This document shows positions 37,208 to 48,988 of a stretch of 64,000 nt of DNA, piece by piece. This DNA comes from an uncultured Flavobacteriaceae bacterium. Lineage in GTDB: Bacteria > Bacteroidota > Bacteroidia > Flavobacteriales > Flavobacteriaceae. The notes beneath the pieces are model-generated. The model did no database searches, was not told the origin of the DNA, and saw only the letters and a list, made by a program, of their open reading frames with translations. Made by a program: the position numbers and the translations under genes. Numbering within the stretch: the first letter of the stretch is position 1; every line of letters begins with the position of its first letter. Location of the stretch: the NCBI GenBank assembly GCA_947495135.1, contig CANLXN010000004.1:124001-188000 (forward strand), in the 5' to 3' direction.

Positions 37208-37999
37208 ATGGCCCTAAATGAAGAAACCACCTTATTGTTTGAGAACTACCTCGAAAACCAACTTTCGGAAGCAGACAAAAATGCTTTTGAAAATCGACTC
37301 ACCACCGATGAAGAACTCGCTGCTGAGTTTGCTATTTATAAAGAGGTAAGCAATCACTTCGAGCATCAATTTTCAGAAGAAAGAGATCAATTTAAACAAA
37401 GTTTGGAAGCCGCAAGTGGTAATTTTTTTACTACTGAAAGCGATACAGAAATAGACACTCCTCAGGAACTCCCAAAAGACAAGCCTCAAGAACTCCCTAA
37501 AAAAACACCCGCCAAAGTAGTTAAATTCAAGCCTTGGCAATATGCGATGGCCGCTTCTATGATGTTGCTAGCGGGAATTTTCATGTTTCAAAACGGCAAT
37601 CCAGACCTCAACGATTACAAATACTCTGAACAAATTTCGCTAACGGAACGAAGTAGTGAAAACGCAACAATTAAAGCTGCAGAACGCAATTTCAATAACG
37701 GTTCTTATGCCGAAGCGATTGCTAACTTTGAAACGCTTTTGGAGCAAGACCCGGAAAATACAGAGCTACAATTTTACAAGGCTCTGGCACACGATGCTCT
37801 TCAAGAATACGACGAGTCTGAAGACCTCTTTGCCATCTTAGCAAGCGGTAATTCTGCCTACAAAAACAAAGCGCTCTTCTATTGGGGAATTGGTTCTTGG
37901 AAACAAGACAAAATCTCCAACGCCCGAGAAACGCTCTCCAAAATCTCAGAATCTGCGGCAGAATATAAGAAAGCTCAAAAACTAATTAAAAAGCTATAG
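37208..37999 (+). CDS. membrane anti-sigma-like protein with C-terminal TPR
   Basis: 3 nt downstream of the sigma gene; FENYLENQLSEADKNAFENRLTTDEELAAEF N-terminus, TM WQYAMAASMMLLAGIFMF, TPR YAEAIANFETLLEQDPENTELQFYKALA. Confidence 0.75.
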   Translation: MALNEETTLLFENYLENQLSEADKNAFENRLTTDEELAAEFAIYKEVSNHFEHQFSEERDQFKQSLEAASGNFFTTESDTEIDTPQELPKDKPQELPKKTPAKVVKFKPWQYAMAASMMLLAGIFMFQNGNPDLNDYKYSEQISLTERSSENATIKAAERNFNNGSYAEAIANFETLLEQDPENTELQFYKALAHDALQEYDESEDLFAILASGNSAYKNKALFYWGIGSWKQDKISNARETLSKISESAAEYKKAQKLIKKL

Positions 38000-38154
38000 G
38001 TTACTAGGCAATTATTGGTTTGTAAAATTCAGAACCTTTGGGTTTTGATGTGGCCACCGCCCTAAGCCATTTATATTCTAAGTTGCTTTTGGGATATTGA
38101 GGGAGAAATACCTGATACAATGCGTTGTACACAATTTTTGACCAAATCTTAATT

Positions 38155-38814
38155 ATGAGACATTTAATACTTCTAAACTTCATCTTAGTTTTATTTTCTT
38201 GTAAAAATGAAAACTCCGAACATATTAGGAGTAATAACTCTGGAAATGAAATTGATATTAGTTTGTCAGAAAACCAATCTGACAATGATATTTATCTTGC
38301 TGCCGGAAACTTTAATAATCAAGAAGCTAGTGGATTGAATGCAGAAGGAATTAAATATGTACGAACGTTCGATTACAATAAAGCTGAAAAAAGATTCAAA
38401 CAAGCTTTATTAATTGAGCCGGAAAACCCTATATTATTAAATAATTTAGGAAATATTTCGGACTTAAAAAATGACATAAACACTGCAATCAATTTTTATG
38501 AAAAATCTCTAATCAACTCTGATTCAACATATTTACATCCCGCTTTAAATCTCGGGGTCATTTATTACAAAACAAATAGAGATATGGAATCAATTGATTT
38601 ATTTAAACTCGTGATTTTAAAAAGTAAAGATAAGAACCAAGTAGCAACTGCTCGATTTCAACTCGCTAAATCTTATATAGAAATTAGTGAATGCGAAAAA
38701 GCGAGAACTGAATTGAAATTGGCAAAAAATATGTTGAAAGATATTCCTGAATTTAAAAATAAATTTGAATACGTGGAAGGCAAGATAGAAAACTGTGTAC
38801 AACAGGAGCTATAA
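38155..38814 (+). CDS. TPR lipoprotein
   Basis: MRHLILLNFILVLFSCKNENSE lipobox; AEKRFKQALLIEPENPILLNNLGNI TPR. Confidence 0.75.
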   Translation: MRHLILLNFILVLFSCKNENSEHIRSNNSGNEIDISLSENQSDNDIYLAAGNFNNQEASGLNAEGIKYVRTFDYNKAEKRFKQALLIEPENPILLNNLGNISDLKNDINTAINFYEKSLINSDSTYLHPALNLGVIYYKTNRDMESIDLFKLVILKSKDKNQVATARFQLAKSYIEISECEKARTELKLAKNMLKDIPEFKNKFEYVEGKIENCVQQEL

Positions 38815-38931
38815 TTAATACGAGATTAAGTGTTAAACCAAGTATGTCATATATCTAACAACAACTGTAAGTAATGGTTGCGGAAGCATACACTATCCAT
38901 TAACTACAAGCTGAAAAAACAAGTGGGTAAA

Positions 38932-39459
38932 ATGAAAAATAAGATGACAATGCTGACTATAGCATTTTTAATTCTTTTCTTGGCGAATTGCAAATCGTTG
39001 ACGTCCTTACCAATTGAAAAAGAGAAAGAAAAATATACTATTATACACCAATCTAAAGGAGATTTAAATTTCGATGGAATACCCGATTTAGCTATCCTTG
39101 CTTCAAATAACGTTGATGAAAAAGGAACAATTATTGTCTTTATAGCTGACTCGAAAGGGAATGTTTCCAAAAAGCTTGTGAATGAACATCTGACGGACGT
39201 TTTTATTGAAATGTACAATGGGTTACCTGAAATAGAAATCAAAAATGGAGAATTAATCATTTCGTATTACGGAGGAATGTGCCATAGAGAAAGCCGAAAC
39301 CTTATATTTAGTTTCAACATACAACTAAACGATTTATTTTTTAAGACCATTGAAATGGGAACACATAATGTTTGTAATGATGAAGAACCATCGGGATATG
39401 AAATTACAAATGCTGAATTAAGAAGAGTAACGTTTACGGAGTATAAAGACGAATTATAA
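38932..39459 (+). CDS. hypothetical lipoprotein
   Basis: MKNKMTMLTIAFLILFLANCKSLT; DLNFDGIPDLAIL; start moved from 38878. Confidence 0.65.
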   Translation: MKNKMTMLTIAFLILFLANCKSLTSLPIEKEKEKYTIIHQSKGDLNFDGIPDLAILASNNVDEKGTIIVFIADSKGNVSKKLVNEHLTDVFIEMYNGLPEIEIKNGELIISYYGGMCHRESRNLIFSFNIQLNDLFFKTIEMGTHNVCNDEEPSGYEITNAELRRVTFTEYKDEL

Positions 39460-39916
39460 ATAAAAAAGCCCGCGGCTTGCAATCACTGTAAACAATAAAG
39501 TAGTTGCACTTCATCAAAAACCAAAAGGCAATAAAAATGGAGATTGAACTAAAACGGTTGCCAGCAAAGAACCGATCAAAAAACCACAGTTTACCACAAA
39601 ATTACATATCTTTAAAATCCAGAACCCTTATTTCTCCCCGTTCTGTGTTTTCCCCTTTTTTTAATCCAAGGTCTAGTTGGGTTAATTTTTTAAAATGAAT
39701 TAATGATATCGAAGGCTCTTTGGGTTTTTGGTGTATGAACGTACATAAACTGTTCTTTTCCTGGATGGAAAGCGGTGTATCGTCGATAAAATAGAATGTA
39801 TAACTAGTTGTGCATAATGCGAAAATCGAGCATAAATTGAACATTTGAACTAGAAAAGCCAACGCACAAACAGCACATTTGGTTTTTTGCCAACGCTCAG
39901 AAAATATTAACTGAAT

Positions 39917-40882
39917 ATGATAAAACTACCTGAAATTGGATTGACTTTTACTGATGGAGACGAATGGGAGGAATTTTGTCAAAGTTGCTTAAAAATAAAA
40001 CATCAACATCATAATTTTAAATCTGTTCCAGCGGATTCTGGAGGAGATTATGGACTTGACGGATATAATTCAATAGGAGACGCTTACCAATGTTACTGCC
40101 CAGAAAAAGAATATACTGACAAAGAATTGTATGAACATCAAAGAGACAAAGTCACAAAAGATGTACAAAAGCTCTTCGACTATCAAGATAAACTGAGAAA
40201 AATACTTAATGGGAATAAAATTAAAATTTGGCACTTTACTACACCATTGATTAAATCAAAAGAATTATTACTTCATTGCAATACAAAAGAAAATCTAGTA
40301 AAAAGTTGGAATTTAGACTTTATCGATACTGATTTTGAAATTGGATTAAAGGATTATCAATATTTTATACCAGAAATTCCTAGTGTAATTGATTCAAGCA
40401 AATTCTTAAAACCAATTACATATCAAGAAATAGATTTCACCAGCACCGAACCAAATAATCAAACAATAGAAGATTTTAAGGCTATTTATGAAAACAACAC
40501 TTTTGTTGAAAATGGATTAAGAAAAAACGCCAAACTGTTTCCTGATAATCCAAAGAAAAACTATTCTGATAATATAGTTGGATTAACTGATTCCCAAATC
40601 AGAGATTTCATAGTTGGCGAGGATATTTTAGAAAAGTGGTCAAATTTTAATAATAAACTTTATGAGAAATTTGTTCGTGTTAGAAATTCGCTTGGAAAAA
40701 GAGTTGCAAAAGAGAGTTTAATTCCTGTAAATGATAACAGAGAAAAACTTAAAGAAATAGATATAACAGTAAAAACTTTGATTAATAAAGAGTTTCATTT
40801 TTTATCAGAATCTAACAAAGAAGAACTTACGGCTTATTTAGTTTCATTTTGGATTTTAGAATGCTCATTAGATTTTAGCTAA
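39917..40882 (+). CDS. ABC-3C-like component with N-terminal restriction-endonuclease-like domain
   Basis: N-terminal FCQSCLKIKHQHHNFKSVPADSGGDYGLDGYNSIGDAYQCYCPE resembles Mrr-like GxxGLDGxx...YQCY; helical C-terminus; first gene of a tight three-gene operon. Confidence 0.6.
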   Translation: MIKLPEIGLTFTDGDEWEEFCQSCLKIKHQHHNFKSVPADSGGDYGLDGYNSIGDAYQCYCPEKEYTDKELYEHQRDKVTKDVQKLFDYQDKLRKILNGNKIKIWHFTTPLIKSKELLLHCNTKENLVKSWNLDFIDTDFEIGLKDYQYFIPEIPSVIDSSKFLKPITYQEIDFTSTEPNNQTIEDFKAIYENNTFVENGLRKNAKLFPDNPKKNYSDNIVGLTDSQIRDFIVGEDILEKWSNFNNKLYEKFVRVRNSLGKRVAKESLIPVNDNREKLKEIDITVKTLINKEFHFLSESNKEELTAYLVSFWILECSLDFS

Positions 40883-41344
40883 ATGGAAGAAAATAAATAT
40901 ATATCATTTACGGAAAGAGAAATGCCTTTATACGTAAACTATAGACCAATGTATAAAGTTTCCCAAATTCTATTAATCCTATATTTTAATGGTTATGCAG
41001 GAAAGGCAAGTTTACTAAAACTTCATTTATTCTCTTGGGCTTTAAAATCATATGATAATTTAAATACTTTAAAAGATTTTGTTACTTCAAATTATAAAAA
41101 TAAACTTGAATTTTTCGGTATTGAATCAACCTTAAATAGAGCATTAAATCTAGCTTATGCAGAAAAATTAGTGGATTTTGAAAAAGGTAATTATAAATTA
41201 TTAGAAAAAGGACGGCAATTCGTAGAACAAATTAATGATGATGAAACCTTGTTTGTAGATGAAAAACAAGTGCTAAAATTAATTGGCAAGAAAATTCCCG
41301 AAAAAATTATTAACGGATTAATAAATCAATGGAAGAATGCTTAA
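40883..41344 (+). CDS. ABC-3C-like middle component (small wHTH-like protein)
   Basis: 153 aa; ATG directly after the previous stop (taaATG); overlaps the next gene by 8 nt. Confidence 0.55.
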   Translation: MEENKYISFTEREMPLYVNYRPMYKVSQILLILYFNGYAGKASLLKLHLFSWALKSYDNLNTLKDFVTSNYKNKLEFFGIESTLNRALNLAYAEKLVDFEKGNYKLLEKGRQFVEQINDDETLFVDEKQVLKLIGKKIPEKIINGLINQWKNA

Positions 41345-43358
41345 AATTAAAGCTTTAAAAATAACGATAAATACAGACAAAGGAGTTTACGGAACGCCAC
41401 TTCTAAGTTTTAGTGATAGTTTGACAATAATTAAGGGCTTTAATTCAACTGGAAAAAGCACTTTGTTTCAATCAATTATCTATTGTCTTGGTCTAGAGGA
41501 ACTAATTGGTGGTAAAAATGAGAAGACAATGCAATCTGTTCTTAAAAGTGAAATTCTCAATAACCAAAATAGCATTGAAGCCAATGTAATAGAATCAAAT
41601 ATTCTTTTAGAAATAGAAGGCACTTCAATTGTTACTGTCAAACGTTATATTTCTAGTGAGTCTAAAAATTCAGGTTTAGTTGAAGTATTTAATGGTCCAT
41701 TATTGTCTGAACCTAAACAGTACGATTACGTTCCTATGTATGTTCACGATAAAGGTTCAGCAGATAGTAAAAATGCGTTTGGTTTTCATTCATTTTTAGA
41801 AAAACTTATTGATTGGGAATTACCTCAAGTTCAATATAAAGACGGTAGCTTTAGAAAATTATATCTTCAAAATATTTTTCCAAGTTTTGTCATCGAGCAA
41901 AAAGCAGGTTGGACAGATTTTTTAGCTACTATACCATATTATTCGCTACTTGATAAAGAAACAAGAGCTTTAGAGTTTCTTTTAAATTTAGATTCTTGGA
42001 AAATTCAACAACGTAAATCAAAATTAAAGCAAGACAAAAACGATTTAATATTTGATTGGCGAAATAAGTTTAATGAGTTTAAGTCATTAGCTAATCAAAT
42101 AGCGTGTGAAATTAGAGGTGTCGGCATTCAACCTGAAATTATAAATTTATCGAACACAGTTTATTTAGCTTATGTAACTGAAGAAAAGACTTATAATATA
42201 ACAGAATACATTACTAAACTTGAAGAGGAATATGAAGAATTAATTGAACTAGAAATCCCAAATGTTGGCGACCAAGCAGAAGAAGCTGAATTACGAATAA
42301 ATAGTTTAAATGAGCGTGTAAGTAATTACTCAATCAACCTTTCGTCAACAATTAATAAAAAGAATCTTGCGATTAGTAAATACAGTTCTTTCAAAGAAAG
42401 ATTATTAGAACTTGAAAACGACAAAACTCAAAACGAATATCATCTTAAAGTTAAAAAGAAAGGTGCTGAACAAGGTTTTGCAATTGCACACGATAATTGT
42501 CCATATTGTAGCCAAGGATTAAGCGACTCATTACTTCCTAAAGACATTGAAATAGTTCCAATGCAAATAGAAGAAAATTTGGAATATATAAAAGCCCAGA
42601 TTAACTTAATCAAAATTTATATGTTAAACCATCAAAATGACATATCAGATTTAGAAAAGAACATTGATTTATTAAATTCAAGGATTTCAGAAACAAGAAG
42701 TAATATACGAACACTTAAAACCCAATTAACAAGTGATAATCGTTTGCCTTCAATTGAATTAATTGAAAAACGTTTAAAACTCAAAGCTAGGTTAAATTTA
42801 TATAGAAGAAAGTATGACGAATTATCATCTTTCCAAGAAGATTTCAAAAGTCTATCTGATGAATGGGTGCAAATTTTAAGTTCAGAAAAGGAATTGCCAA
42901 AATCACTTTCTGCATTCGATTATAAAAAAATAGCAGAGTTGGAAACAGTATTTAAACAATTACTTAGAGAATTTCATTATCGCAGTAAGCCTATTGATAG
43001 TATAAGTATATCTAGAGATACTTTGTTGCCTGTTGTTGACAGATATTCTTTGAAATTTGATTCCTCAGCAAGTGACTTTACAAGAGCAATTTGGAGCTAT
43101 ACAATTGCCCTCAAAGAAACTTCTGAAAAATTTAAGGGAAATCATCCAAAACTATTTATTCTTGACGAACCAGCACAACAAGAAGCAGGAGATAATGACC
43201 TTCAATTTTTACTTAAAAGATTAGGTAACTATGGAAATACACAATCAATTGTCTTCTCTTCTTTTCATCAATCTGAAGCCACTTTTAAAGCCTGTACTAA
43301 AGATGTAAACTTTGAATTGATTGATTTAGGAGTAGAAAAATTTATAAAAAAATTATAA
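41337..43358 (+). CDS. Rad50/SMC-like ATPase with zinc-hook-like CPYC motif (ABC-3C ATPase)
   Basis: Walker A GFNSTGKST, coiled coils, NCPYCSQGL, Walker B PKLFILDEPAQQE. Confidence 0.8.
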   Translation: MLKIKALKITINTDKGVYGTPLLSFSDSLTIIKGFNSTGKSTLFQSIIYCLGLEELIGGKNEKTMQSVLKSEILNNQNSIEANVIESNILLEIEGTSIVTVKRYISSESKNSGLVEVFNGPLLSEPKQYDYVPMYVHDKGSADSKNAFGFHSFLEKLIDWELPQVQYKDGSFRKLYLQNIFPSFVIEQKAGWTDFLATIPYYSLLDKETRALEFLLNLDSWKIQQRKSKLKQDKNDLIFDWRNKFNEFKSLANQIACEIRGVGIQPEIINLSNTVYLAYVTEEKTYNITEYITKLEEEYEELIELEIPNVGDQAEEAELRINSLNERVSNYSINLSSTINKKNLAISKYSSFKERLLELENDKTQNEYHLKVKKKGAEQGFAIAHDNCPYCSQGLSDSLLPKDIEIVPMQIEENLEYIKAQINLIKIYMLNHQNDISDLEKNIDLLNSRISETRSNIRTLKTQLTSDNRLPSIELIEKRLKLKARLNLYRRKYDELSSFQEDFKSLSDEWVQILSSEKELPKSLSAFDYKKIAELETVFKQLLREFHYRSKPIDSISISRDTLLPVVDRYSLKFDSSASDFTRAIWSYTIALKETSEKFKGNHPKLFILDEPAQQEAGDNDLQFLLKRLGNYGNTQSIVFSSFHQSEATFKACTKDVNFELIDLGVEKFIKKL

Positions 43359-43694
43359 CAGATATGCCAACGCTTAAAGCCATACACATTTACAATTCGC
43401 CACAGCCAACGCTACGCCAAAAATTGCAAAAGAGTATGTCTTGCCAACGCACAAATTCGAACTAAATAACAAACATCGGAAAACCAATCAGAACGTGAAA
43501 AGCACTATGCACAACAATGTATATAAAACATAGCTATTATAGGCTTTCCGAGAGGTTTATGTGTGTTTGCAAAGACCGCCAAATTTTTAAATTTGGCTCG
43601 TGTATAATCCGAAACGATAGCGTCTTTTTACACGCTACGTTTCATATACGGAGACGTTGTAAGCAATCTAAGGAAAAGAAAAACTAAAATACAA

Positions 43695-44432
43695 ATGGCG
43701 AAATTTATAAATACAAGAAAAGCAGTTGCCGCAATTGAAGACTTAATAAAAGAGGCAGAAGATAAACTTATTCTTATTTCTCCTTATCTGAAATTATCCA
43801 AAGATTTTAAAGAACTTCTGACTTATAGAAATAGTAAGGACAAAATCACAACCATAATATTTGGAAAACAAGAATTAAACCCAAACGAGATGAAATTTCT
43901 TGAGGGTTTACAATTTGTAATTTTAAAATATAACCAAGACTTACATGCAAAATGTTATATGAATGATAAACAAATGATTATCACCTCATTGAACCTGTAT
44001 GAATTTTCAATGGCTAACAACAAGGAAATGGGAGTTTTGATTGACCTTTCTGATGAAAATGACAAAATGCTGTTTGAAGATGCCGTAAAAGAGATTGATT
44101 ACATAGATAGTACAAGCGAGAGATTCAAATTTAACACAGCAACGCCGCAAGAGACAAAAACGGAAATAAGACCCAAGAAAAAAAACTCACCAGTTTCAAA
44201 GTTAGAAAACAACGAAAATGGACATTGTATACGTTGTAGTAAATCAATTAAATTAAATCCACTCGTCCCATATTGCAAGGACTGCTATAAGATTTGGAAT
44301 AAATATGGTGATGAAGAATATCTTGAAGAACACTGCCACATTTGCGGAACAGAAAAAGATACTACAATGCTTAAACCGACTTGCTATCCCTGCTACAAGG
44401 CCAATAAAACTAAGTTAGAGTTTAATATTTAG
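43695..44432 (+). CDS. phospholipase-D-like protein with two C-terminal zinc-ribbon-like CxxC pairs
   Basis: KLILISPYLKLS, DLHAKCYMNDKQMIITSLNLYEFSMANNKEMGVLI (HxK), CIRCSK...CKDC...CHICGT...CYPC. Confidence 0.75.
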   Translation: MAKFINTRKAVAAIEDLIKEAEDKLILISPYLKLSKDFKELLTYRNSKDKITTIIFGKQELNPNEMKFLEGLQFVILKYNQDLHAKCYMNDKQMIITSLNLYEFSMANNKEMGVLIDLSDENDKMLFEDAVKEIDYIDSTSERFKFNTATPQETKTEIRPKKKNSPVSKLENNENGHCIRCSKSIKLNPLVPYCKDCYKIWNKYGDEEYLEEHCHICGTEKDTTMLKPTCYPCYKANKTKLEFNI

Positions 44433-44491
44433 AAATAATAACTATTTAGTTACAATGATAAAGTAAAGAAAACCGTTGCGCCAAATTTAGA

Positions 44492-45139
44492 ATGAATCAG
44501 TCAATACATAACATTACTTTTATTAGCACTATACACAAGGAAATTGGAAAATGTAATGTGGATGAATTATGTGCAATTTTAGAAAAAATAAACCCAGATG
44601 TTGTCTTTTTGGAAGCTCTTGAGAGTACATATTCAAACTATGAGAAGAAAATATTTTCTTCACTTGGAATATACCATCAAAGACTTGAGATAAAAGCGAT
44701 TCAGAAATACAGCAAAAATTTCCATTTTGAATATGTTCCTGTGCTTGACGGTGGATTGTCTCAATCATTTGACAATAAATACAACATAGTTTGCGAAAAC
44801 ATTCAATTTCGAAGGATGTTTAATCATTACAACTCATTGGCTTTTGAGCACGGGTTTCAATTCCTTAATAGTCCTGAGAGTATAAAACTACAAGAGAACA
44901 TGCGAATGTTCGAATCCCATCTCTTAAAGGATACTCAACTAAATGAAGCGGTTAATGAAGATATGCATGCTTATGAAAATTCGATGATCCGTAATATATA
45001 TTTATATTGTAAAAGTAATCAGTTTGATAAGGCCGTTTTTATGTGTGGTGTTGCTCACAGACGTTCAATTATCGAAATGATTGGAAGGTTTAATAGCCAG
45101 GAAAAATTAGATTTGCATTGGGAAGTTTATGGAAATTAA
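44492..45139 (+). CDS. TraB/ChaN/Ere-superfamily-like protein
   Basis: ITFISTIHKEIGKCN, DVVFLEAL, KAVFMCGVAHRRSIIEMI resemble the TIKI/TraB/ChaN His/Glu core. Confidence 0.5.
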   Translation: MNQSIHNITFISTIHKEIGKCNVDELCAILEKINPDVVFLEALESTYSNYEKKIFSSLGIYHQRLEIKAIQKYSKNFHFEYVPVLDGGLSQSFDNKYNIVCENIQFRRMFNHYNSLAFEHGFQFLNSPESIKLQENMRMFESHLLKDTQLNEAVNEDMHAYENSMIRNIYLYCKSNQFDKAVFMCGVAHRRSIIEMIGRFNSQEKLDLHWEVYGN

Positions 45140-45148
45140 AGTATTTAA

Positions 45149-45712
45149 ATGAAAACTTCGCACAACAAACCTATTAGCCATAAGTTGAAACACGAAAAGA
45201 AATATCTTATTTTAGAAAGCCAGTTTGACAGCAACTATAAATTATATATCTATATTTTCTTCCTATTTGCACTCGGTATGCCATTCATTGTGATAATGAA
45301 AACATACGGATTAATTCGCATTGTGGCTATAATTGGATTTATTGCCATATTATTCCTCGGTGTATCTATTTGGTTCATGAAAAAAGGCTTTATGAAAAAT
45401 AGTCACGGTTTGCATATCGGTTATTTCTCATGGGGCAAGTTGGTGTTTACAGAACATATTAGATTGCTCAATAAACCGAAGGTAACTATCTTAAAATTCA
45501 GAAAGCGCGAAAGGGCTGGTTTCGTAAGCATCGCAAATCCCGAGTTTTCCCAAGCCTTTAACGCTTTTGACATCTACTTGCTCAATGAAAAACATACTGT
45601 CAAAAAACAGGTAATATCTTTTAAAAGTGAAAAAAATGCCCAATTGGCTTTGAATTTCTTGACTTCTAATTCAAAACTTAAACATGAAATTTATAGTCCA
45701 GATTTCTCATGA
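45149..45712 (+). CDS. hypothetical two-TM membrane protein
   Basis: Two hydrophobic helices followed by a PH-like C-terminal region. Confidence 0.55.
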   Translation: MKTSHNKPISHKLKHEKKYLILESQFDSNYKLYIYIFFLFALGMPFIVIMKTYGLIRIVAIIGFIAILFLGVSIWFMKKGFMKNSHGLHIGYFSWGKLVFTEHIRLLNKPKVTILKFRKRERAGFVSIANPEFSQAFNAFDIYLLNEKHTVKKQVISFKSEKNAQLALNFLTSNSKLKHEIYSPDFS

Positions 45713-45954
45713 CCAACCTATGGCTAACAAAGTATACGAAAAAATACTTTGAGCTAATTAAATGGTCATTACCAAAAACACTCAAAAGAACAATCTTCAC
45801 ATCATCTTTTCACCTAATAAGACATTACTTTTTTTACAATTTCACACCAAAATTTGATCGCTTTTACGGAATGACAAACAATATTCTTGGCAAAAATTCT
45901 ATAGAGAAATTATTCTTTACTTTTGAATCTTTCAAAAACAGCGCTTCTAATTAA
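45709..45954 (+). CDS. hypothetical small protein, coupled to the upstream gene
   Basis: ATGA overlap with 45149-45712; no family recognised. Confidence 0.3.
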   Translation: MTNLWLTKYTKKYFELIKWSLPKTLKRTIFTSSFHLIRHYFFYNFTPKFDRFYGMTNNILGKNSIEKLFFTFESFKNSASN

Positions 45955-46790
45955 TGAGTAGTACACCATCCACCAAGAATACCGTAAAAACCGTATGGCA
46001 CGCATTTATGAGTAGCGCTGCATGGTATTGGCTTAAAAAAGCAATTGTATTTACAATTTTCTCTTTAGTGGTCAATCATTTAGCAACACCCGATAGTTTT
46101 CTATATAGTAAATCGTATCGATTCCCCATAGAAGGTTTTCTGTCTACTATTGTTTTACTTATTCTCATCGGAATCATAGCAGATCTTAATTTTAAATTTT
46201 ACAAGAAAAAGTATTTCTCTAAAAAGGTAGAGGTGGTCACTATCGCATGGTTTATGGCTTCTACGCTAGCATATATTACCCTTATGTATATTCCTGTAAA
46301 TATGATCATCAATATGGTCGCAGGAGCACAGATGGTGTTCTATAATTTAATGATTGGTTTGCTAGTTACCTTATTATTGAGTTTTATTTTCATCGGTTTA
46401 CTTTATGCGCAGGATCTTTATAATTTATATAAGTTCTCCATAAAAGATGCTGAAATCACCATTGAAAGCGGCGCAAAAACAACAAAGCTTACCTACGAAA
46501 ATATTGCGTGTTTTTACAGCGAGCATAAAATTGTGTATACGCTCAAAAATGACGGCACCACAATTAACACCGACTTCACTTTAAATGAGCTTGAAGAAAA
46601 AATAAACGATCAGTTGTTTTTTAGAGCCAATCGGCAAATGATCATCCACAAAGATGCGGTAGACCAAATTGAAAAGATTGAAAATGGCAAGTTGCGTATT
46701 CGGTTAAAAGCTTCCATTGAAAACGATGCCATTGCCGAAATCAACATTAGTCGCTACAAGAGAAAAGCATTTATGGATTGGTTTCAATAA
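45954..46790 (+). CDS. membrane LytTR-domain transcriptional regulator
   Basis: Four TM helices then LytTR: KLTYENIACFYSEHKIVYTLKNDG...FFRANRQMIIHKDAVDQI...INISRYKRKAFMDWF. Confidence 0.88.
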   Translation: MSSTPSTKNTVKTVWHAFMSSAAWYWLKKAIVFTIFSLVVNHLATPDSFLYSKSYRFPIEGFLSTIVLLILIGIIADLNFKFYKKKYFSKKVEVVTIAWFMASTLAYITLMYIPVNMIINMVAGAQMVFYNLMIGLLVTLLLSFIFIGLLYAQDLYNLYKFSIKDAEITIESGAKTTKLTYENIACFYSEHKIVYTLKNDGTTINTDFTLNELEEKINDQLFFRANRQMIIHKDAVDQIEKIENGKLRIRLKASIENDAIAEINISRYKRKAFMDWFQ

Positions 46791-46807
46791 AAGATGCCGA
46801 AAACGAC

Positions 46808-46843
46808 CGACTATTCAGTTATAAATTAACGACCATTCAGTAA
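46808..46843. promoter_or_regulatory. candidate LytTR direct-repeat binding site
   Basis: CGACTATTCAGTTA (46808-46821) and CGACCATTCAGTAA (46830-46843); 12 of 14 match, 22-bp period, between the LytTR gene and the CPBP gene. Confidence 0.6.
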
Positions 46844-46914
46844 AAACACACGTCTTTAAAGGGTTTTTCAGGGATTTTGTTCATTATTTCGCTTAGAAAT
46901 TAAAATTAAAAACA

Positions 46915-47577
46915 ATGAACAAAATCACTTTACGTCAAGTATTAATTCCATTAATTACCACTGCAATCATCTGCTTTTTATGGTTCGGACCCGCCCGTAT
47001 TAGCTACATAGAAAACATCATTATTTCTATACTAATCTTTATAGCAAATTACATAGAATACAAAGGGAAAGGATTTTCAGCACTCGGATTTCAACGCGAA
47101 AACGTTACCGTCAAAAACATCGTCGTACTGGCTCCATTAGTTGCACTAGGGCTTTTCGCATTTTATGTCTTTCTATTGGTTCCAGGAGTTACAAAACTCA
47201 CAGGCGTTCCTATAGATTATTCAAGTTTTGATCAATTAAAAGGAAATCTTCCAGCCTGTTTAATTGCGTTATTATTAGTGTGGGCTTCTGCTGGGTTTGG
47301 AGAAGAAATTATCTTCCGTGGTTATTTTATGCGACAACTTGTAAAATTCTTTGGAGAAAGCAAAGTCAGTATTGTACTTAATATTGTCCTACTTTCTTGC
47401 TTCTTTGGCTTTATGCACAGTTATCAAGGAATTACGGGGCAAATTGTTGCAGGAACTATTGGAGCAATCTTAGCTCTGATATTCTACCTGCGTAAATACG
47501 ATTTGTGGTTTGTGGTTGCCGTACACGGTATTTTTGACACCATTGCGATCATTTGTGTTTACTTTGGTTTGGCATAG
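46915..47577 (+). CDS. CPBP-family intramembrane metalloprotease
   Basis: GFGEEIIFRGYFMRQL, CFFGFMHSYQGITGQIVAGTIGAILALIFY. Confidence 0.88.
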   Translation: MNKITLRQVLIPLITTAIICFLWFGPARISYIENIIISILIFIANYIEYKGKGFSALGFQRENVTVKNIVVLAPLVALGLFAFYVFLLVPGVTKLTGVPIDYSSFDQLKGNLPACLIALLLVWASAGFGEEIIFRGYFMRQLVKFFGESKVSIVLNIVLLSCFFGFMHSYQGITGQIVAGTIGAILALIFYLRKYDLWFVVAVHGIFDTIAIICVYFGLA

Positions 47578-47631
47578 CGACACCAAGTAATAATGCTTAA
47601 CAAAGACCGTTGTAGGTCCCAACAAATCTAA

Positions 47632-48585
47632 CTAGTCCTCATTCAACAACTTAGAAATCTCGTCCAACTTAGGCGTAAGTATCACCTCGATCCTTCTGTT
47701 CTTTGATCTTCCTTCACTGGAGGTGTTGGGAGCAATGGGAGCGTATTCTCCTCTTCCGGCGGGGGTGAGATTGTCTTTTGGAATTCCGCTGTTGTTGGTG
47801 AGGATATTTACAATGGCGGTGGCTCTTTTGGTAGAAAGATCCCAGTTATTTTTTATGTTTCCGTTTCCACCGTAAGGCACGTTGTCTGTATGTCCTTCGA
47901 TAAGCACTGCGATCTCTTTGTTTTGTGCTAGGACGTTTCCTAGAGCGCGAACGGCTTCACTTCCTCTGGTGTTAACTGCCCAGCTCCCACTATCGAAAAG
48001 GAGTTTGTTTTCCATAGAAACATATACTTTTCCGTTGCGTCGTTCTACGGTAAGTCCGTTTCCTTCAAAATTGGTAAGTGCGGCAGAAATCGCATCTTTC
48101 AAAGCGCGCATTTTAGCGTCTTTGGCTGCAATAATTCCCTCTAATTCTTCTACGCGTTCCGACCGGTCCGATAACTGTCTTTGCAGATCTGCCAGACGTG
48201 TTTCTTCTTTTGCCAACGCTTTTTCTTTGGCCTCTAACTCTTCCAAGAGCTTTCTGTTGCGTTCCAGGTTTTCGGTGAGCGCGGAGGAGCTATTGGATTC
48301 TAAGGCGTCGTACGATTCTTTGAGTCGGTCGAAATTACTTTTGGCAGCAGCCAGGTCCATTGCCAAGGCTGTTTTCTCTCCATTTAACTTTTCCACCTCT
48401 TTTCGCAAATTGGCAACGCTGTAGGTTTCACCGTTTCCTCCTGTTCCGTCGAGTTGGGACATGAGGGATTCGTTTTCGGTTTTAAGGGCAGCGTACTTAT
48501 CTTTTAAATCCTCGTAGATTTTGGAGGAAACACAGGAGGTAGTGAGTAATGCGATTGCTATTCCGAAGAAAATATTTTTAGTCAT
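47632..48585 (-). CDS. OmpA-family lipoprotein
   Basis: MTKNIFFGIAIALLTTSCVSSK lipobox, coiled coil, C-terminal LIEGHTDNVPYGG...LSTKRATAIVNIL...GRGEYAPI. Confidence 0.92.
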   Translation of the reverse strand: MTKNIFFGIAIALLTTSCVSSKIYEDLKDKYAALKTENESLMSQLDGTGGNGETYSVANLRKEVEKLNGEKTALAMDLAAAKSNFDRLKESYDALESNSSSALTENLERNRKLLEELEAKEKALAKEETRLADLQRQLSDRSERVEELEGIIAAKDAKMRALKDAISAALTNFEGNGLTVERRNGKVYVSMENKLLFDSGSWAVNTRGSEAVRALGNVLAQNKEIAVLIEGHTDNVPYGGNGNIKNNWDLSTKRATAIVNILTNNSGIPKDNLTPAGRGEYAPIAPNTSSEGRSKNRRIEVILTPKLDEISKLLNED

Positions 48586-48604
48586 AATTTGGGGTTTAGG
48601 GCGT

Positions 48605-48988
48605 TTAATTTTCAGCAAAAAAGAACTCTAGCGTGTAATCTTCATACTCCTTTTGAGAAATTCCTTCTGCGTAATATATATTATCTTTTTGATTGTATCT
48701 ACTTAAATAGGCGGCATTAATTTGTTGATGAATTGCATCGCCCGGCATTATTTTTCGAGCGGTTACATTGTAAATAGCGTTGCTATGTTTCAACTGGCCC
48801 ACTCCGGTTTTAAGGAACTCGGTAAACCAACTTCGTTCACTTTTATTCCAACTTCTTGCAAAAACACGTTCTCCAACCGCAACTACCCAAATCTCCAGAA
48901 AAGTTTCTCGTTCTTTTCCGCCTTTGATTTCGGTGTAATTGTGGACCAAAAGGTGTTCGTAAAATGTGGAAGGGAAATTCATATCCAT
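48605..48988 (-). CDS. DUF2255-like hypothetical protein
   Basis: EIWVVAVGERVFARSWNKSERSWFTEFLKTGVGQL pattern; family call from memory. Confidence 0.5.
   Translation of the reverse strand: MDMNFPSTFYEHLLVHNYTEIKGGKERETFLEIWVVAVGERVFARSWNKSERSWFTEFLKTGVGQLKHSNAIYNVTARKIMPGDAIHQQINAAYLSRYNQKDNIYYAEGISQKEYEDYTLEFFFAEN

Follow-up and report, generated by a model that had tools for sequence, protein, structure and literature searches.

Composition and identity of the operon

The stretch of DNA analyzed here (the window) comprises 64,000 nucleotides of contig CANLXN010000004.1 from an uncultured, marine-type Flavobacteriaceae bacterium (assembly GCA_947495135.1, positions 124,001 to 188,000 of the forward strand). 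Between window positions 39917 and 43358 lie three tightly coupled genes, which, like the domains, motifs and repeats located below, are on the plus strand. The first, lmuA (39917..40882), encodes a 321-residue effector subunit with a PD-(D/E)XK-like N-terminal domain (residues 1 to 159; 39917..40393), containing the motif Q58-C59-Y60 (40088..40096), and a helical C-terminal docking domain (residues 185 to 321; 40469..40879) that ends in W-x3-C-x3-F. The second, lmuC (40883..41344), encodes a 153-residue middle component, and the third, lmuB (41337..43358), a Rad50/SMC-like ATPase of 673 residues. The TAA of lmuA directly abuts the ATG of lmuC, and lmuC and lmuB overlap by 8 nt. An earlier note on this DNA, made from its letters alone, had described these three reading frames and junctions along with the motifs GLDGYN..YQCYCPE, GFNSTGKST, CPYC and FILDEPAQQE, and all of them are found in the sequence. 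In LmuB, the Walker A motif GFNSTGKST (41436..41462), the zinc-hook motif CPYC (residues 388 to 391; 42498..42509) and the Walker B motif LFILDEP with an intact catalytic Glu (43152..43172) are conserved: G39, K40 and S41, the C, P and C of the hook, and the D, E and P of Walker B are each invariant in 23/23 sequences.

PADLOC profiles match all three proteins in the correct order and with the gene overlaps: LmuA (PDLC03852, E = 1.6e-36, residues 6 to 297), LmuC (PDLC03871, E = 1.2e-25) and LmuB (PDLC03863, E = 4.2e-103, residues 1 to 659). The features that define Lamassu, namely an LmuB with Walker A and B motifs, an adjacent two-domain LmuA and, for type II, a small LmuC, are all present, and the LmuA profile also matches distant members. 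Judged from its sequence, the operon is a complete, intact Lamassu (ABC-three-component, ABC-3C) system with the type II three-gene layout, and it represents a distinct subtype. The names ABC-3C, Lamassu type II and DdmABC all refer to one superfamily (PMC10586767; PMC12409362), and Lamassu type II is a phage defence system (PMC8565338). The earlier note's view of the locus as a three-component ABC/Rad50-like operon of a predicted defence kind is thereby borne out, ABC-3C and Lamassu being the same thing (PMC10586767).

Gene order, protein sizes and the overlapping or nearly abutting junctions are the same in Bacteroidota (including Salegentibacter, Maribacter, Echinicola and Aquimarina), Bacillota, Pseudomonadota, Actinomycetota, Cyanobacteriota and Gemmatimonadota. 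Because the same operon recurs in at least six phyla, the three-gene arrangement is not a product of chance. Across the relatives, W17, G43, G46, Q58-C-Y60, D82, K85, W312 and C316 of LmuA and R21, L106, G110 and E127 of LmuC are invariant; 2 of the 25 loci examined had an interrupted lmuB or yielded none. Replacement of the Walker B Glu by Gln has been described as general (PMC10586767), and D-Q-P is indeed present in nine of the other LmuB proteins that we scanned, whereas the Q-C-Y clade retains D-E-P. By keeping the Glu, this clade retains the residue that ATP hydrolysis requires, and LmuB activation might be reversible or ATP driven.

Effector exchange on a shared LmuBC chassis

The C-terminal 137 residues of LmuA were compared with other LmuA proteins by hmmsearch. 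They scored 44 and 41 bits against two LmuA proteins of the trypsin type, as opposed to 0.6 and -1.1 bits against two other LmuA controls. One of the trypsin systems (L091) belongs to a member of the same family and the other (L107) is on a Shewanella baltica plasmid; both have LmuB and LmuC proteins of the same clade as those of the window, and in both a gene of the MBL-fold type precedes the system. The N-terminal trypsin domain of the L091 protein is recognized by Pfam (Trypsin, 4.6e-7), while the Shewanella protein was assigned to the trypsin type by its C-terminal domain, gene order and sequence appearance. In a tree of LmuB proteins, 26 Q-C-Y systems form one group (support 96/93), next to which the two trypsin systems are placed. 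The outgroup branches are long, which leaves the root unsure. A nuclease-protease pairing has been published for Lamassu (PMC12799240). Because the trypsin-LmuA systems have the same C-terminal domain and the same LmuBC, the N-terminal domain is a swappable effector module on an LmuBC chassis and not a sensor.

Fold and motif of the LmuA N-terminal domain

The full-length LmuA model retrieved nothing useful with Foldseek, and the N-terminal domain was therefore folded on its own. The AlphaFold2 model of residues 1 to 159 (pLDDT 91.6, pTM 0.86) has the order alpha-beta-beta-beta-alpha-beta, and its best match in a viral structure library is a restriction endonuclease (E = 7.8e-4, probability 0.99); other restriction endonucleases, as well as PD-(D/E)XK proteins, also appear among the eight best matches. 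In an hhalign comparison with Mrr-type LmuA (E = 2.8e-5), Q58-C-Y60 falls on the Q-C-K motif of that protein and D48 on a conserved Asp. These results agree with the earlier description of the first protein as restriction endonuclease-like. A core fold of this kind is supported by the model and not proven, since no solved structure matches the LmuA models at E ≤ 0.001.

Q-C-Y shows no variation among the relatives (27/27), which come from at least six phyla. A second cluster, K78...D82-x-x-K85 (40148..40171), lies on the helix that follows the Q-C-Y strand. D82-x-x-K85 is present in 27/27 Q-C-Y proteins and has its counterpart in the E-x-x-K of the Q-C-K branch, while four residues before D82 (the position of K78) a Lys occurs in 26/27 proteins of the Q-C-Y branch and in 0/9 of the Q-C-K branch. 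The stretch between Q-C and D/E-x-x-K is 24 residues long in the Q-C-Y branch versus 16 in the Q-C-K branch, and because the length of the helix that bears K78 differs between the branches, the alignment at K78 is less certain. The earlier note had called Gln/Cys/Tyr an unusual replacement for E-x-K; this is correct for the change of Lys to Tyr but not for Gln in place of Glu, which is normal in the Q-C-K nuclease branch.

Taking the evidence together, we put the probability at roughly 0.74 that the operon belongs to a Lamassu subtype in which the Q-C-Y domain is the effector and defence proceeds as in the characterized systems from which we infer its mechanism. Several observations weigh against this reading. 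The PADLOC LmuB profiles, taken alone, also weakly match ordinary SMC proteins, and the Lamassu assignment therefore rests on the ordered trio; matches of LmuB to SMC_N, Rad50 and ASRP (NCBIfam, Pfam) are likewise weak and generic. Of the profile checks proposed for the three proteins, PADLOC gave a match to each, but no Pfam C-terminal domain (CTD) or middle component (MC) model for ABC-3C matches any of the window proteins or of 13 related LmuA proteins, and the same Pfam search finds CTD6, CTD8 and MC4 in control Lamassu systems. That search also returned no Pfam nuclease model, and a sequence search against solved structures gave no match either. Finally, the motif III lysine of D...(E/Q)-x-K is missing, with Y60 in its place in all 27 proteins and D48 and Q58 present, and in a Priestia relative the K78 position is occupied by Glu and that of D44 by Gly. 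The operon of this relative, on a Priestia megaterium plasmid (L070), is otherwise intact and adjoins a TIR-domain gene, and it offers a natural test of the idea that the lysine has moved. Because the effector of the window operon lacks the classical PD-(D/E)XK lysine and the Pfam models for ABC-3C (CTD and MC) do not detect the operon, we set it apart within Lamassu. Lamassu is a known kind of defence; what is new is a barely annotated subtype without the usual catalytic lysine in its nuclease-like effector.

In some PD-(D/E)XK families, the catalytic lysine is known to have moved. The loss of the motif III lysine together with the gain of a lysine on the next helix fits such a relocation, and K78, the candidate relocated residue, probably compensates for the Tyr. 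We predict, with reasonable though not high confidence, that the Q-C-Y domain is catalytic. The earlier note had instead regarded the domain as an atypical or inactive nuclease acting as a sensor, a view that the evidence did not support, given that the invariance of Q-C-Y in all 27 relatives speaks against decay and that the domain fills the effector slot of trypsin. In a rival explanation along the lines of that note, the system would be the same Lamassu, with the Q-C-Y domain a catalytically dead restriction endonuclease fold serving recognition or inhibition by binding to LmuBC or nucleic acid, and killing would be done elsewhere, for example by the LmuB ATPase. The change of the motif III Lys to Tyr in 27/27 proteins and the lack of any other enzymatic domain in LmuA would suit this explanation. 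We consider it unlikely, however, because an acidic residue (D or E) at position 48, together with Q58, D82 and K85, is kept at ~25-30% identity, because the next helix gains a lysine that the Q-C-K proteins do not have, and because the protein that takes the place of the domain in the sister systems, a trypsin protease, is an effector. Less likely still, in our estimation, is the same system with altered chemistry or an altered substrate, such as RNA or nucleotides and not double-stranded DNA, in which Y60 would be part of a new active site. An invariant Q-C-Y with the K78/D82/K85 cluster, unlike the Q-C-K branch, and the chemical diversity of Lamassu effectors (PMC10586767) are consistent with such a change, but the nearest fold matches are DNA restriction endonucleases and the nearest sequence relatives are Mrr-like.

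Distribution and transfer

The operon was not found in any of the 59 relatives searched, which include eight of the same genus, and a clear Q-C-Y LmuA was present in only 2/398 sampled Bacteroidota genomes. Nevertheless, the window LmuA shares 92 to 93% identity with its counterparts in Salegentibacter, Maribacter and Echinicola (a genus of another family) and 88% with the Aquimarina protein. DNA homology to the closest copies covers the operon, a leader of at most ~110 bp and ~40 bp downstream. In three congeners, the TPR and OmpA-like genes that flank the region (37208-37999 and 47632-48618) are directly adjacent, and because these genes are neighbors there, the ~9.6 kb that separates them in the window (about 38000-47631) and contains the operon is inserted sequence when compared with those three genomes.

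Relatives of the operon have other defence genes close by. In Salegentibacter flavus (L057, 1175-15753), the near-identical operon is placed inside a type I restriction-modification locus, with hsdM on one side and hsdS/hsdR on the other, and an AbiEi-like gene accompanies it; the Maribacter copy adjoins AbiG-like and Mrr-like genes, the Echinicola copy AbiO/Nhi-like genes, the Kocuria copy the type I restriction-modification genes HsdS/HsdR, and the Polaromonas copy is near brxL. Annotated phage records contained no match. From sequence comparison, the operon is patchily distributed and horizontally acquired as one unit, with relatives in defence islands. A housekeeping role without any function in defence, in a Rad50-like repair operon, could be proposed from the similarity of LmuB to SMC/Rad50 proteins, but the absence from all relatives searched, the strong horizontal transfer, the empty site in congeners and the defence-island neighbors leave it very improbable.

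Some copies are on mobile elements or are apparently no longer whole. On an Agrobacterium tumefaciens pTi plasmid (L077), a Q-C-Y Lamassu operon adjoins TniQ/TniB/transposase genes, which suggests that it is carried by a Tn7-like transposon. The Polaromonas copy (L079) is apparently broken, with lmuB annotated in several pieces, as is the Azospirillum copy (L108), in which an IS5-family insertion separates lmuA from lmuB.

The 9.6-kb island also holds genes for a TPR protein, a lipoprotein-like protein, a PLD-like/zinc-ribbon protein, a LytTR regulator and a CAAX protease-like protein. The PLD-domain protein (43695-44432) has weak similarity to DrmC of DISARM (E about 1e-8) and a C-terminal, zinc-ribbon-like pair of CxxC motifs; no DISARM partners were seen adjoining its gene. 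We considered this gene as a fourth component of the system and rejected it, as DNA homology to seven relatives stops at the end of lmuB or at most ~40 bp beyond.

Ends of the transferred unit and an attC-like element

The conserved leader of the transferred unit, delimited by blastn and alignment, spans 39807..39916, and homology to the Aquimarina copy begins exactly at 39807. A conserved block around GCCAACGCACAAACAGCACATTTGGTTTTTTGCCAACGC precedes lmuA in the window and in four other loci (L058, L059, L060 and L061); the exact core of the block occurs once in the window's genome, and the block is perhaps a promoter or leader.

The operon is bracketed by an inverted repeat whose left arm, GTTGTGCATAATGC (39807..39820), is complementary at 13/14 positions to the right arm, GCACTATGCACAAC (43502..43515), and 0/300 shuffles gave an equally good repeat. 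The right arm heads a dispersed, attC-like repeat element (43500..43670) that has copies in 14/41 genomes searched. In Flavobacteriaceae (L128-L132; L060:16557-16750), this element of ~170-200 bp is found in several copies and in arrays that alternate with genes on the same strand. In three cassettes, one of them the operon, the start, GTT(N)11, pairs with the reverse complement of the cassette's own end, ...AAC, at 13/14, 13/14 and 14/15 positions, and the single mismatch is always at position 11. Several other cassettes gave no such pairing with the simple pattern used. The sites of the element depart from the classical GTTRRRY consensus and had no Rfam match, and around the operon of the other Bacteroidota relatives no cassette-end inverted repeats turned up. 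The arrangement looks like an integron-like cassette system, and the element is probably a vehicle that stands outside the defence mechanism. That the whole operon (39807 to about 43660) moves as one site-specific cassette of an attC-like system of Flavobacteriaceae, with the element following each cassette, is a tentative proposal that we regard as more doubtful than not; if true, a three-gene Lamassu would be unusually large for a cassette, carried by an integron-like platform with non-classical sites.

Proposed mechanism and closest known systems

Characterized Lamassu systems suggest how the operon would act, with regard to its defence activity, trigger, oligomerization and DNA cleavage, given the composition, homology, motifs, effector exchange and transfer observed here. 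An LmuB dimer formed via the CPxC hook, together with LmuC, would keep LmuA inactive, and LmuBC would detect aberrant or foreign DNA, for example ends or hairpins. Activation would release LmuA to form oligomers; LmuA of the Cap4 type is reported to form a tetramer (PMC12409362). The freed, restriction endonuclease-like N-terminal domain would then cut DNA indiscriminately, and the cell would be killed or arrested before the phage or plasmid could spread, as in abortive infection.

Lamassu type II with an Mrr-type LmuA (Pfam CTD6, "middle component 2") shares with the window operon its layout, the helical C-terminal domain, a Rad50-like LmuB and a restriction endonuclease-like N-terminal domain with W-E, G-D-x-G and Q-C motifs, and its LmuA falls into the same PADLOC family (PDLC03852). 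It differs in having Q-C-K in place of Q-C-Y and no counterpart of K78, and, unlike in the Mrr-type systems, the C-terminal domain of the window protein has no Pfam CTD6 match and its LmuC no Pfam MC match. In the trypsin-LmuA Lamassu with a gated MBL-fold nuclease (PMC12799240), LmuB is homologous over its full length (27.8% identity, E = 9e-61), as are LmuC and the LmuA C-terminal domain. The protease of that system acts on the product of a separate nuclease gene, whereas the window operon has a restriction endonuclease-like domain, a three-gene unit of homology and no fourth gene; neither a trypsin domain nor an MBL nuclease gene is present in it. DdmABC of Vibrio cholerae (PMC12409362) also combines a nuclease-like LmuA (DdmA), a small LmuC (DdmB) and an SMC-like LmuB (DdmC), but its effector is a Cap4 nuclease, and the LmuB of such systems is reported to have the Walker B Glu-to-Gln change (PMC10586767), in contrast to the Glu retained in the window clade.

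Plasmid-borne Q-C-Y lmuA genes are annotated as "hypothetical protein" or left unannotated, whereas Q-C-K relatives mostly carry the annotation "ABC-three component system protein." The operon thus belongs to a widespread, unnamed Lamassu subtype to which Pfam is blind as ABC-3C, whose annotated members are nearly all called hypothetical and which is found on plasmids, one of them a Ti plasmid. Its comparison with the trypsin systems shows the exchange of a restriction endonuclease-like for a trypsin effector on one LmuBC chassis, and it raises a catalytic question, namely whether an effector of the PD-(D/E)XK type may work with Tyr in place of Lys through a relocated lysine.

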